Source of the DNA: Pseudopedobacter saltans DSM 12145
GTDB lineage: Bacteria; Bacteroidota; Bacteroidia; Sphingobacteriales; Sphingobacteriaceae
Assembly (NCBI RefSeq): GCF_000190735.1
Contig: NC_015177.1
Location: 930,001-994,000, forward strand
Direction of reading: 5' to 3'
DNA: 64,000 nucleotides
Notes under the pieces: model-generated
Told to the model about the DNA's origin: nothing
Seen by the model: the letters and a program-made list of their open reading frames with translations, nothing else
Databases searched by the model: none
Translations under genes and position numbers: made by a program
Shown here: piece by piece, positions 5,093-11,075 of the stretch
Layout: each line of letters begins with the position of its first letter
How positions within the stretch are numbered: the first letter of the stretch is position 1

Positions 5093-6034
5093 TTATTCTA
5101 CCGTCTTTATAAAAGTGATGTTCCGCTTCAAACCGGCTATTTTAGTACGCTTAACAGCAGATTTTTTAAAGACTTTGCCAAACACCTCTTCAGTAATTTC
5201 TTCCCAATCTCTTTTTGACATTTCCAGTAAATCCGGATGCGGATTAAAAGCTTCTTCCTGATGGATTACAGAAAAGCGATTCCACGGACAAACATTTTGG
5301 CAGACATCACAGCCAAACATCCAGTTATCCATTTTATTTTTAAAAGAATGGGGAATTTCTTCTTTCAGTTCTATCGTGAGATAAGAAATACATTTACTTC
5401 CATCGACTACATAAGGCGATACTATTGCTTCTGTAGGGCAGGCGTCTATACATCTTGTACATGTCCCACAATGATCAGTCGAAAAAGGAACATCATAAGC
5501 CAGTTCCATATCGACGATTAATTCGCCTAAAAAGAAGAACGAACCACTTTTATTATTTATGATATTGGCATTTTTTCCAACCCATCCTAATCCGCCTTTT
5601 TTGGCCCAGGCTTTATCCAGAACAGGTGCCGAATCGACAAATGCCCGTCCTGATACCGCTCCAATATTTTCTTCAATAAAATGATGAAGTGATTTCAACT
5701 TATCTTTTATAACAAAATGATAGTCTGTGCCATAAGCGTACTTTGAAATTTTAGGAGCAGATTCATCGTTTTGTTTTGCATCGGTATAATAGTTCAATGC
5801 AATGGAGATAACAGATTTAGCACCATCCACCAAAAGCCTTGGATCCAGTCTCTTATCGAAATGATTGTTCATGTAAGCCATTTCGCCTTGATAATCATTT
5901 CGGAGCCATTTTTCTAATCGGGAAGCTTCTTCTTCAAGGAATTCGGCTTTTGAAATACCACAAAACAAAAAACCTAAGCGTTTGGCCTCGGCTTTTATCA
6001 TTTCACTGTATTTCAATTTCTGTTGCTCGTTCAT
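5093..6034 (-). CDS. queG: epoxyqueuosine reductase QueG
   Basis: QueG reduces epoxyqueuosine to queuosine at the tRNA wobble position, using cobalamin and two [4Fe-4S] clusters. In this 313-residue protein the catalytic Asp is D134 in [11 protein letters not shown]. The clusters bind C189-x2-C192-x2-C195-x3-C199 and C242-x2-C245-x3-C249, with a further Cys at 215. It has no HEAT-repeat extension, which is common for the shorter form. It is followed on the same strand by the gap at 5004-5092, in which I see nothing. Confidence 0.95.
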
Positions 6035-6071: not shown

Positions 6072-6815
6072 TTATAAAAGATTTAATAATTCTCGCAAGA
6101 TTAACCCGACAATTAGGGCTATAGAAAAGCTTATCAATGTGCCTAACAAAATATATTCCGTTAGTTTTTTGTCTTTGGAGTTTGTGAGGTCGCCAAATCT
6201 AAATATAGATTTCGCAGCCAGCAAATATCCTATTCCTTCCAGAAAATTGATACTGATAAATGTAACAATCAGGATTCGTTCTAAAATACCGATATATTTT
6301 CCCGCGTCTTTCAGCGAATCTGTGTCCAGAGATTCATCGTTTTCTTTTAAGGCGCTATACCATTTATTGAAAAACAATTTGAGCAGGGTAGGAGCTACAG
6401 ATGTAACCATTAAAAATGCAATTGCATAAAGCATTATCGTTTCAATAGATAATGACATAGTTATCATCTCTACATTTCCAAAATATCCATAAAAAACCAA
6501 TGCGATTACAATTATATGCAATAGCTGATCTAAGGTGAAAAGTAGCAATTTATAACCCGTTGACTTTTTTTCCAGATAAATCTTTCCCAGATCTATGAAA
6601 AAATGAGATATAAGAATTATGAGTAAACCTAACCAATATTCCGATAATGATCCTATAAAAAATAGCAATATGAGTAAGGTATGTACTCCTATATGATAAT
6701 ACAGGTACTTAGAGTGAGCGCCATTTCTGTTCCTCTCCGCAATCCATTTATTACTTTGCAGCGAGAAATCGCCAATAATATGCGCCAATATTAATTTTAG
6801 GATGAAGATGTACAT
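6072..6815 (-). CDS. DUF3307 membrane protein, partner of SatD
   Basis: This 247-residue integral membrane protein has about six hydrophobic segments and no characterised function. Polar residues cluster at or in the helices: H12-x2-GD16-x3-Q20, H41-x3-H45, H71-x3-D75 and D96-Q-x2-H100. The pattern resembles intramembrane metal-binding hydrolases such as the YdjM type, but that is only an analogy. Its ATG lies inside the 3' end of satD (19-base overlap), so the two are translationally coupled. DUF3307 proteins are found next to SatD-like proteins in other bacteria. The substrate and role are unknown. Confidence 0.8.
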
Positions 6816-7411
6816 TTAGCGATTAAGGTTTTTTGACAATAATTGATGGTTTTCAGGATATAATCGTAACCTGCTTTTTTTAGCTCTCTACTAATCTGGC
6901 TCTGCTTCTTGCCAATCTTATTGGTGAGCTCCGCTTGGTTGAGTTCTTTATAGGCTAAACTGTAATATACAGTTGAAGATACGTTGGCATTCCAGTTATG
7001 GATAATGAAAGCCATTAAGTCTAAGTAGATATTCAGCTGTTCATCCAGATCTTTCCATGGTGTTTTTATCTTTAATGTTTCTTTTTGTAAAGCATCAAAG
7101 GTTTCACCCGAAAATACAAACGCCTGTCCGTTAGATTTTTTCAGCGAGTCTGCTTCATAATCTTTCTCACCGATACCTACAGCCATTCTTACATCTAATC
7201 CCTGTATAGATTTAATGATAGTTTTAATATAAATAATGGCTTCAAAAGCTTGTTCTATAGATGTTTCCATTTGAAAACTATCGCCCCTGTATATTTCCCA
7301 GCTGCTTTTTTTTAGAGCATATTTAGCCAATGCTTTTTCTAACAAAGGGAGCCAAAGTTTTGTATCGACTTGTCGGGAATTAATAATATCTCCGGTTAAT
7401 ATAGCTATCAC
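6797..7411 (-). CDS. SatD-family protein: cyclase-like domain plus C-terminal HTH
   Basis: This 204-residue protein belongs to the SatD family, whose role is unknown. Residues 1-120 resemble a class III nucleotide cyclase core: ILTGDIINSR (D8) at the first metal position, IYRGDSF (D44) at the second, then DVRMAVGIGE and SNGQAFVFSGETFDAL where cyclases have R-x-GI-x-GE and G-x-x-VN-x-AAR. Residues 157-185 (NQAELTNKIGKKQSQISREL) form a clear helix-turn-helix. Cyclase activity is not shown; the fold may be a ligand sensor only. It overlaps the DUF3307 gene and has an array of inverted repeats right upstream that its HTH could bind. Confidence 0.75.
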   Translation of the reverse strand: MIAILTGDIINSRQVDTKLWLPLLEKALAKYALKKSSWEIYRGDSFQMETSIEQAFEAIIYIKTIIKSIQGLDVRMAVGIGEKDYEADSLKKSNGQAFVFSGETFDALQKETLKIKTPWKDLDEQLNIYLDLMAFIIHNWNANVSSTVYYSLAYKELNQAELTNKIGKKQSQISRELKKAGYDYILKTINYCQKTLIAKCTSSS

Positions 7412-7412
7412 T

Positions 7413-7510
7413 TTATAACTGTTATAAAAGCAAATATAACCGATTTTGGTTATAATTTTGAATATAACTGATTTTAGTTATAATCTAAAATATAACAGTA
7501 TTTGGTTATA
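7413..7510. promoter_or_regulatory. phased array of inverted-repeat operators upstream of satD
   Basis: Three TATAAC-N8-GTTATA inverted repeats lie at 7435-7454, 7463-7482 and 7491-7510, each start exactly 28 bases after the last. A fourth, tighter palindrome, TTATAAC-T-GTTATAA, is at 7413-7427, directly before the satD ATG. In the first two, the bases next to the arms change together (C...G and T...A around GATTTT), which keeps the symmetry. The likely ligand is the SatD HTH or another dimeric regulator; this is inferred. Confidence 0.75.
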
Positions 7511-9242: not shown

Positions 9243-11075
9243 TCAAGTAGATTGGATTTCAAATTGAAGGTTACTTAAATGCTTATAAATGCCTTCATCA
9301 ATCTGAATCAGTTCACTATGTTTGCCTTCTTCGGCAATTTTTCCTTTATCTAAAACAATAATTTTATCGGCTTCGCGAATAGTCGATAAGCGATGTGCGA
9401 TAATAATAGAGGTACGCCCTTTCATTAAAGTTTCCAGTGCTTCCTGTACTAATCTTTCAGATTCCGAATCCAGAGAAGATGTCGCTTCGTCTAAAATTAA
9501 AATAGCCGGATCTTTTAATAAAGCCCTCGCTATAGCAATACGCTGTCTTTGTCCACCCGAAAGCTTAACACCGCGCTCGCCCACAACAGTGTCATAACCT
9601 TCAGGAAAACTCATAATGAAATTGTGAGCATTGGCCTGTTCTGCTGCTTTTATAATTTCTTCTTTGGTGGCATTTAGTTTTCCGTAAGCGATATTCTCTA
9701 AAATTGTACCACCGAATAGTATGACATCTTGCGGAACAATAGCAATTTGATTACGGATATCTGTTAATGCCAAATCATTGGCATTTATACCATCAAAAGT
9801 TATTTCACCTTTTTGAATATCATAAAATTTAAGGATCAAACCTGCAATAGTGGACTTTCCAGCTCCCGAGGAACCAACAAAGGCAACTTTTTGCCCTGCT
9901 TCGACATCAAATGAAATACCTTTAAGAACAGTTATTTCTTTCCGGGAAGGGTAGGCGAATACTACACCTTTAAAGGATAGACTTCCTTTAATAAAATGTT
10001 TGGTTTTATTCTTTTCAGGATCGATAGAGATATCTTCTGTTTTTTCTTCTAAGATTTCTAAAACACGTTCCGAAGCACCGACAGCTTTCTGAATATTGGC
10101 ATATAAATCTGGAAAGGTCCCCATTGCAGCACCCACAAATAATGAGTACAGCATATAAGCTAATAAAGAAGAAATATCAAATGATCCTTGCTGAACCAAA
10201 TAAGCACCGTACCACATTACTCCTAAAATGGCGCCAAACAAGCAAAATATAATAAATGATGCAAAACTCCCTCTGTAAGTGGCACCTCTTAAAGCGATTT
10301 TTACTACTTGACGAAGACTTTTATCATATCTGCCGGCCTCATAAGATTCATTAACAAAAGCTTTAACATTGTTGATACCTTGTAAGGTTTCCTCAACTAT
10401 AGTATTTGATTCTGCCAATTGATCTTGCGCACTTCTGGATATCAATCTTAATTTTTTTCCAAAGAAAACACCACAGCCAATAATAATAGGAAGAATAGAA
10501 AGATTGAATAAAGTTAATTGTACAGAAGTATAAATTAGGAAAGAAATACCACCAATTAACAATATAGTTTGTCTTATTATTTCTGCAAAACTTGTTGTTA
10601 TAGTATCTTGTATCTGAGAAAGATCTGCCGAAAGTCTGCTGTTTAATTCCCCAACTCTTCTGTTAGAGAAGAAGTTCATTGGGAGCGTAATCATTTTAAA
10701 ATAAGTATCTCTTCTTAAATCGGCCAGTGCTTTTTCGGTTACTTCAACAAAAAGCTTGATGCGGAAAAAAGATACAAAAGATTGTACAAATAAGATACTG
10801 AATGCTATAATTCCGATTAATTTAACACTATTCGGAAGTCCGTATTCTGCAGGATTTCCCTGAGCAACCTCAAGCATCACCTTAATTAATCCTGGAAATA
10901 GCAATCCCGTTAAGCTGGATAATAAAAGAAAAACAAATCCAATAATAAATTTCCCTTTATATGGCTTTAAATACTTGAGTAGCGCCGAGATTTTATTTAA
11001 TGTCTCTTTGTTGAGTTTTGCTTTTGGGAGTTCTGCTTCTTGTTTTGATCCACTATTAAACCTGTTCCTTGCCAT
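9243..11075 (-). CDS. ABC exporter, fused permease/ATPase (MsbA-like)
   Basis: This 610-residue half-transporter has a six-helix membrane domain (about 38-330) and an ATPase domain (about 360-605). The Walker A motif is GSSGAGKST at 401-409, the signature LSGGQ starts at 505, and Walker B is ILILDE at 525-530. It would work as a homodimer in the inner membrane, exporting a lipid, peptide or drug. MsbA-type lipid flipping is possible but not proven. The first 25 residues are charged and lie in the cytoplasm. A -7 box is found 33 bases upstream. Confidence 0.9.
   Translation of the reverse strand: MARNRFNSGSKQEAELPKAKLNKETLNKISALLKYLKPYKGKFIIGFVFLLLSSLTGLLFPGLIKVMLEVAQGNPAEYGLPNSVKLIGIIAFSILFVQSFVSFFRIKLFVEVTEKALADLRRDTYFKMITLPMNFFSNRRVGELNSRLSADLSQIQDTITTSFAEIIRQTILLIGGISFLIYTSVQLTLFNLSILPIIIGCGVFFGKKLRLISRSAQDQLAESNTIVEETLQGINNVKAFVNESYEAGRYDKSLRQVVKIALRGATYRGSFASFIIFCLFGAILGVMWYGAYLVQQGSFDISSLLAYMLYSLFVGAAMGTFPDLYANIQKAVGASERVLEILEEKTEDISIDPEKNKTKHFIKGSLSFKGVVFAYPSRKEITVLKGISFDVEAGQKVAFVGSSGAGKSTIAGLILKFYDIQKGEITFDGINANDLALTDIRNQIAIVPQDVILFGGTILENIAYGKLNATKEEIIKAAEQANAHNFIMSFPEGYDTVVGERGVKLSGGQRQRIAIARALLKDPAILILDEATSSLDSESERLVQEALETLMKGRTSIIIAHRLSTIREADKIIVLDKGKIAEEGKHSELIQIDEGIYKHLSNLQFEIQST

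Follow-up and report, generated by a model that had tools for sequence, protein, structure and literature searches.

The two-gene satD operon of Pseudopedobacter saltans probably encodes an autoregulated, nucleotide-responsive repressor, SatD, together with the membrane effector that it controls, and its operators appear to have been co-opted by phages. This reading comes from a computational analysis of a 64,000-nucleotide stretch of the genome (the window) and of related loci in other bacteria, archaea, plasmids and phages. At its centre is a phased array of palindromic half-sites immediately upstream of satD (Table 1), whose sequence changes between lineages together with residues of the SatD recognition helix, and copies of which recur in prophages. 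The array and its prophage copies, absent from a preliminary description of this DNA, hold most of the new information. The open-licence literature searched on satD and DUF3307 describes no operator or mechanism, and no earlier report of the array or of the constant membrane domain of satD pairs was found there.

Table 1 Features of the satD operon and its upstream region, in window coordinates
Feature	Position	Strand	Details
satD	6797..7411	minus	204 aa, GTG start; palm (cyclase/GGDEF-like) domain, linker helices and C-terminal HTH; from ORF, AlphaFold, Foldseek and family matches
SatD palm domain, residues 1-120	7052..7411	minus	D8, R42-G43-D44, G79, G81; from conservation, model and fold search
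SatD recognition helix, residues 170-179	6875..6904	minus	Covariation with the operator half-site at residues 169, 172 and 175; helix from model
Membrane partner gene	6072..6815	minus	247 aa; 19-bp overlap with satD; PF11750 E = 7.5e-27
Partner DUF3307 (PF11750) domain, residues 5-123	6447..6803	minus	Invariant D16, H41, H71, D75, D96, H100
Partner C-terminal membrane domain, residues ~165-247	6075..6323	minus	ER, KxxxR, (E/D)Y, G, S; common to partners of very distant SatDs
Operator array (putative)	7421..7510	none	Seven perfect half-sites, GTTATA/TATAAC alternating, every 14 bp, immediately 5' of satD
Full palindromes in array	7435-7454, 7463-7482, 7491-7510		TATAAC-N8-GTTATA, exact 28-bp register
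Extra off-grid half-site TATAAC	7414..7419	none	Tight palindrome with 7421-7426, beside the satD start codon
TAnnTTTG match, TATATTTG	7431..7438	minus (satD strand)	Overlaps an operator half-site; read from sequence

A predicted palm-fold protein with a helix-turn-helix

The two genes lie, as first described, on the minus strand as overlapping open reading frames, and every SatD motif then quoted (TGDI, RGDSF, MAVGIGE, SGETFDAL and the HTH) is present in the translation. SatD proteins form Pfam family PF16264, named after the Streptococcus mutans sat operon. A profile search with the window protein gave no PF16264 listing at E ≤ 1; the family was matched by 20 of 25 aligned homologues at E ≤ 0.1 (best 3.4e-12), and its cut-off was exceeded by the same-family orthologues from genomes G016 and G013. 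On the strength of these homologues' matches, the name SatD appears correct by transitivity. Searches of Pfam, NCBIfam, PADLOC and PHROGs with the window protein returned weak HTH-type matches and nothing else, and phmmer found no match in the PDB; a profile built from 25 SatDs reached the cyclase Ma1120 at E 0.12 only.

Structure was more informative. In the AlphaFold (AF2) model (mean pLDDT 94.5), residues 1-120 resemble class III cyclases, GGDEF domains, Cas10 palms and GTP cyclohydrolase III. Foldseek returned Csm Cas10 as best match (E 1.3e-4) and Ma1120 at E 2.7e-4 with probability 1.00, and VIA gave Z scores of 8-9 over 106-142 residues, including 8.0-8.8 to several cyclases. The cyclase/GGDEF-type fold proposed from motifs is thus borne out by structure prediction and fold search, as is the expected conservation of its two aspartates: D8 and D44 are invariant in alignments of 25 and of 54 homologues, the larger of which also shows R42, G43, F46 and Q47 to be invariant, and the second motif reads GD-x-(F/I)-Q in 19 of 19 distant SatDs. 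Two putative metal-binding aspartates are therefore present by conservation. The likeness to the VN-AAR loop of class III cyclases did not hold: at that place the window subfamily has, by eye, AFxxSG, lacking the transition-state Asn and Arg. As these residues appear to be replaced, ordinary class III chemistry is unlikely, and the palm is likelier to be a nucleotide sensor than a catalyst. Control of SatD by a nucleotide is, from the modelled fold and the invariant residues, somewhat more probable than its independence from one.

An operator array that covaries with the recognition helix

The three TATAAC-N8-GTTATA palindromes of the window array are not reached in number by any of 100 shuffled sequences, and the repeats have no match in Rfam. 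With a step of 14 bp, successive half-sites would be displaced by about 120 degrees around the helix, which makes cooperative assembly of SatD along the array plausible. The sequence TAnnTTTG is the -7 promoter element of Bacteroidota, and its position in the window (Table 1) places the array over the likely promoter.

The arrangement recurs across Bacteroidota and beyond. Among 111 main satD loci (30 from one family and 81 from further searches), about nine tenths carry a palindrome array of 28-bp period 5' of satD, and in most of these none of 100 shuffles scores as high. Where the half-site is of the TAT type, the modal array has six half-sites, with a median distance of 22 bp from its end to the start codon; in 32 of 87 such loci this interval contains TAnnTTTG, compared with 3.5% in shuffles. 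Arrays also precede 14 of 19 distant satD loci (at most 2 of 200 shuffles as good). Gammaproteobacteria, Alphaproteobacteria and haloarchaea are represented among them, with loci from Vibrio, E. coli, Sphingomonas and Agrobacterium and from plasmids of haloarchaea.

The half-site itself differs by lineage (TATCGG, TATCTG, TATATG, TATTAG, TATCAT, TATAAC and others), and these differences are mirrored in the protein. The two SatD columns with the highest mutual information to the operator are residue 172 with half-site base 5 (z 12.3) and residue 175 with base 4 (z 9.4), followed by residue 169; in the model, each of the three falls within or at the recognition helix (170-179). The link holds at matched relatedness: at equal identity of the N-terminal domain, pairs with the same operator share 0.59-0.92 of residues 169, 172 and 175 and pairs with different operators 0.15-0.67, and control columns of similar entropy show no such difference. 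Because the half-site varies by lineage and covaries with these residues at matched relatedness, we consider it almost certain that SatD binds its own array. From the overlap of array and promoter, it very probably represses its own operon. The suggestion that the HTH makes SatD a regulator is thereby strengthened, both by the arrays before satD and by their covariation with the recognition helix.

A constant membrane domain and a patchily distributed gene pair

The proposed pairing of satD with a membrane protein is general: in all 111 main loci, the next gene after satD on its strand encodes a membrane protein, usually with an overlap of 4 or 7 bp. The window partner belongs to DUF3307 (PF11750; 94.3 bits against a cut-off of 23), and its AF2 model is all-helical (pLDDT 92.3). 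The DUF3307 model found no relative in the PDB (best Foldseek E 0.67), so that no function can be drawn from its fold. Searches of Pfam and PADLOC returned DUF3307 alone from the former and nothing from the latter, and no cyclic-nucleotide-binding family. In the C-terminal part, the invariant residues are E179, R180, K202, R206, E220, Y221, G225 and S229; an alignment that includes the distant loci shows the motif that partners share there, and this domain is conserved across phyla. Next to other Bacteroidota SatDs of the PF16264 type, the following protein has 104-112 aa, or 247 aa without DUF3307, and only the C-terminal part is kept. The constant partner of SatD is therefore the C-terminal ER-KxxxR-EY domain, with DUF3307 an optional addition.

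The pair is patchily distributed, with satD in 139 of the 251 genomes sampled from the family, and it has no conserved third gene: the largest cluster of next genes comprises 10 of about 110 on either side. In the window, a QueG-type epoxyqueuosine reductase gene (5093-6034) lies on the same strand 37 bp past the pair; its position next to the pair is not conserved. Plasmids from Vibrio, Pseudoalteromonas, Salinivibrio, Agrobacterium, Sphingomonas, Segatella and haloarchaea also carry the pair, or a satD whose partner is shorter. In plasmid pEC34A (3770 bp), satD and DUF3307 are the main cargo, the other annotated genes being Rop, MobA and one small hypothetical protein. Some plasmid copies adjoin annotated toxin-antitoxin or HEPN/nucleotidyltransferase genes. 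A gene annotated as DUF4365 lies near satD on Agrobacterium and Enterobacter plasmids (L241, L245).

In Streptococcus pyogenes, a published meta-analysis found satD, present in 178 of 249 genomes, to be the only accessory gene that was essential in every case tested (PMC11323703). This would be consistent with SatD acting as an antitoxin or as the repressor of a harmful partner. Judged from the distribution and this report, the chances that the partner is harmful or defensive are about even.

Copies of the array in prophages and phages

In the P. saltans genome, the sole other array with at most one mismatch (G000:C1:1158937-1158984) consists of two palindromes and agrees at 23 of 24 half-site positions, with 3.5e-5 such arrays expected by chance. 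It lies inside a Mu-like prophage, recognized by Mu F-like and tail genes (Pfam) and a weak GemA match, and by MuB-like and transposase-like genes assigned by eye.

Relatives with other half-sites gave the same picture. Phased extra arrays were found in four of 13 relatives chosen for TATCGG-type arrays, with almost none for the control pattern. Across the family, an exact TATCGG array occurs in 53 of 251 genomes and its reverse in none of the 251; 52 of the 53 have satD (Fisher p ~1e-14), an association to which satD's own array contributes, so that the additional arrays were inspected one by one. With surrounding genes assigned by Pfam or PHROGs for some arrays and by eye for the rest, nearly all additional arrays proved to lie in prophages (prophage-type surroundings at L039, L041, L044, L226, L227, L229, L230, L231 and L232). 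Chromosomal sites were the exception: an orthologous one in genus g16 (L042, L043 and L228), near trpS at a DUF6965 gene's 3' end, and a three-palindrome array in the satD-negative genome G245 (L233, ~9947-10008), which is either a relic or the site of another regulator. Single one-mismatch matches in genomes G035 and G320 were taken as chance.

IMG/VR contains 37 stretches with the TATCGG array and one with the reversed control; several of the 37 look like chance or like one repeated phage (L048/L053/L067/L072, L060/L082, L050, L081). Exactly four perfect half-sites are present in 15 of them and more than four in none. The 11 IMG/VR stretches with TATAAC arrays, which mostly fall inside coding genes, were likewise taken as chance.

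Phage arrays are minimal two-palindrome units, most with a gene start within ~150 bp; several lie between convergent genes or have no TAnnTTTG box. Their recurrent neighbours are DUF6965, SRAP, small lipoprotein and ASCH genes. A small DUF6965 (PF22292) reading frame lies beside the array in phage stretches L054, L058, L066 and L069 and at the chromosomal g16 sites (PF22292 matches for L054 and L042, the others by similarity). SRAP-type genes (SOS response associated peptidase) are near the array in phage contigs L054, L057, L058 and L069 (PF02586 for L054). ASCH-type genes adjoin it in two unrelated prophages (L039:7255-7683, by similarity; L044:10158-10709, PF04266).

SatD and DUF3307 were found in none of the INPHARED phages, and viral contigs yielded one SatD relative. 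As phages almost never carry satD, it is the host's regulator that they would use, and their array copies are likely to be functional SatD sites.

Discussion

We propose that the HTH of SatD binds the alternating 14-bp half-sites over its own promoter and thereby keeps satD and its partner low; covariation argues strongly for the binding, and position for the repression. The palm most likely binds a nucleotide and a metal via D8 and D44, which would couple nucleotide state to DNA binding. The released partner would then exert a probably harmful or protective action at the inner membrane, giving the pair an addiction or defence behaviour. In Bacteroidota, two-palindrome copies of the host operator in temperate and Mu-like phages would put phage genes under SatD or titrate it.

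The addiction or defence behaviour is argued from the patchy and plasmid-borne distribution, the variable neighbours and the essentiality of an accessory satD in S. pyogenes (PMC11323703). A different account would make SatD a housekeeping sensor of nucleotide pools or stress over a protective, non-toxic membrane enzyme, the prophages reading host physiology via its operator. Such LexA-like logic has a precedent, since prophages borrow LexA sites, and it sits well with autoregulation, with arrays almost confined to satD and prophages, and with the conserved His/Asp set of DUF3307, which would suit a membrane metal hydrolase. We nevertheless regard it as unlikely, because presence in only 139 of 251 genomes, carriage on plasmids and a host regulon that scarcely extends beyond its own operon favour a repressed harmful partner, which is also the better fit to the S. 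pyogenes essentiality (PMC11323703).

What the phage arrays do is a separate question, and its answer bears on the phages rather than on the operon. They could be decoys that titrate SatD and so turn the host operon on, to the benefit of the phage, for example against superinfecting phages; this is compatible with our explanation of the host operon. Minimal two-palindrome units, some of them away from gene starts, their diverse and unrelated neighbours and the near absence of satD itself from phages would all be expected of decoys. The gene start within ~150 bp of most arrays, and the recurrence of DUF6965, small lipoproteins and ASCH proteins beside them, suggest instead that SatD regulates phage cargo, and we assign the decoy role a low probability. 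Against our own reading, the arrays between convergent genes or without TAnnTTTG are ill-suited to simple promoter repression, and the TATCGG array of G245 without satD, the chromosomal g16 array at the 3' end of DUF6965 and the lack of a solved structural relative for DUF3307 also count against it.

The preliminary description likened the pair to Pycsar, with a cyclase signalling to a membrane effector. That SatD makes a cyclic nucleotide that gates its partner would accord with a palm fold bearing both metal aspartates and with the operon plan of Panoptes, likewise a Cas10-like palm enzyme and a membrane effector (PMC12657230). Yet the HTH and covarying array point to a DNA-binding autoregulator, the window subfamily has AFxxSG at the class III Asn/Arg places, and the partner matches no cyclic-nucleotide-binding family, which together make such signalling improbable. 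That the repeats instead work in RNA, as hairpins of a 5' leader that attenuate expression, is barely credible despite their place immediately 5' of the satD start codon, given half-sites that shift together from one species to the next and covary with the HTH, fixed 14-bp steps, an array over the likely promoter, no Rfam match and copies elsewhere in phages.

The autoregulated SatD repressor of a membrane effector would supply a concrete role, with a DNA site, a regulator and a target operon, for SatD and the DUF3307-type membrane proteins, two families of no assigned function, and would add a transcription-factor branch to the palm superfamily of cyclases, GGDEF domains and Cas10. It may also explain why satD, an accessory gene in S. 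pyogenes, was essential there in every case tested (PMC11323703). The matching prophage operators point to a host-phage regulatory link in Bacteroidota whose signal could be found by simple reporter experiments. SatD and its partner have the look of a switch for stress, addiction or defence that has gone unrecognised and that phages tap. More speculatively, the pair might be an immune or addiction module of two genes, so far unrecognised and spanning domains of life, whose nucleotide-binding palm is the sensor of a repressor that assembles cooperatively on an alternating 14-bp array, with the phage arrays as a counter-measure or the theft of a switch.

Comparison with known systems

Most SatD homologues match the PF16264 profile and share its GD(E/S)FQ motif and C-terminal HTH; no function had been assigned to the family, to which the array and the constant membrane domain are added here. 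With class III cyclases, GGDEF domains, GTP cyclohydrolase III and the Cas10 palm, SatD shares the fold and two Asp at putative metal positions, but it differs in its fusion to an HTH and, in the window subfamily, in not conserving the class III Asn/Arg.

Among two-gene systems, Pycsar combines a cyclase with a cyclic-nucleotide-gated effector in one operon, whereas the satD partner matches DUF3307 alone in Pfam and nothing in PADLOC. Panoptes, which pairs mCpol with 2TM-beta (PMC12657230), likewise joins a palm-fold protein and a membrane protein in one small operon. Its 2TM-beta effector, however, has a cyclic-nucleotide-binding barrel, whereas the model of the satD partner is all-helical and SatD is predicted to bind DNA at an operator array.

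Autoregulated toxin-antitoxin operons resemble the satD pair in having two overlapping genes of which the first encodes the repressor, operators that lie at the promoter, carriage on plasmids and, patchily, on chromosomes, and one member that is essential when present (satD in S. pyogenes). By computation, the satD pair too has a DNA-binding member that regulates its own expression through operators at the promoter; the differences are that this repressor has a nucleotide-cyclase fold and that the toxicity of its partner is putative. In LexA and its LexA-box prophages, too, the operator of a host repressor is borrowed by prophages, but SatD regulates little beyond its own operon, has no autocleavage domain and would act on a multi-site array.
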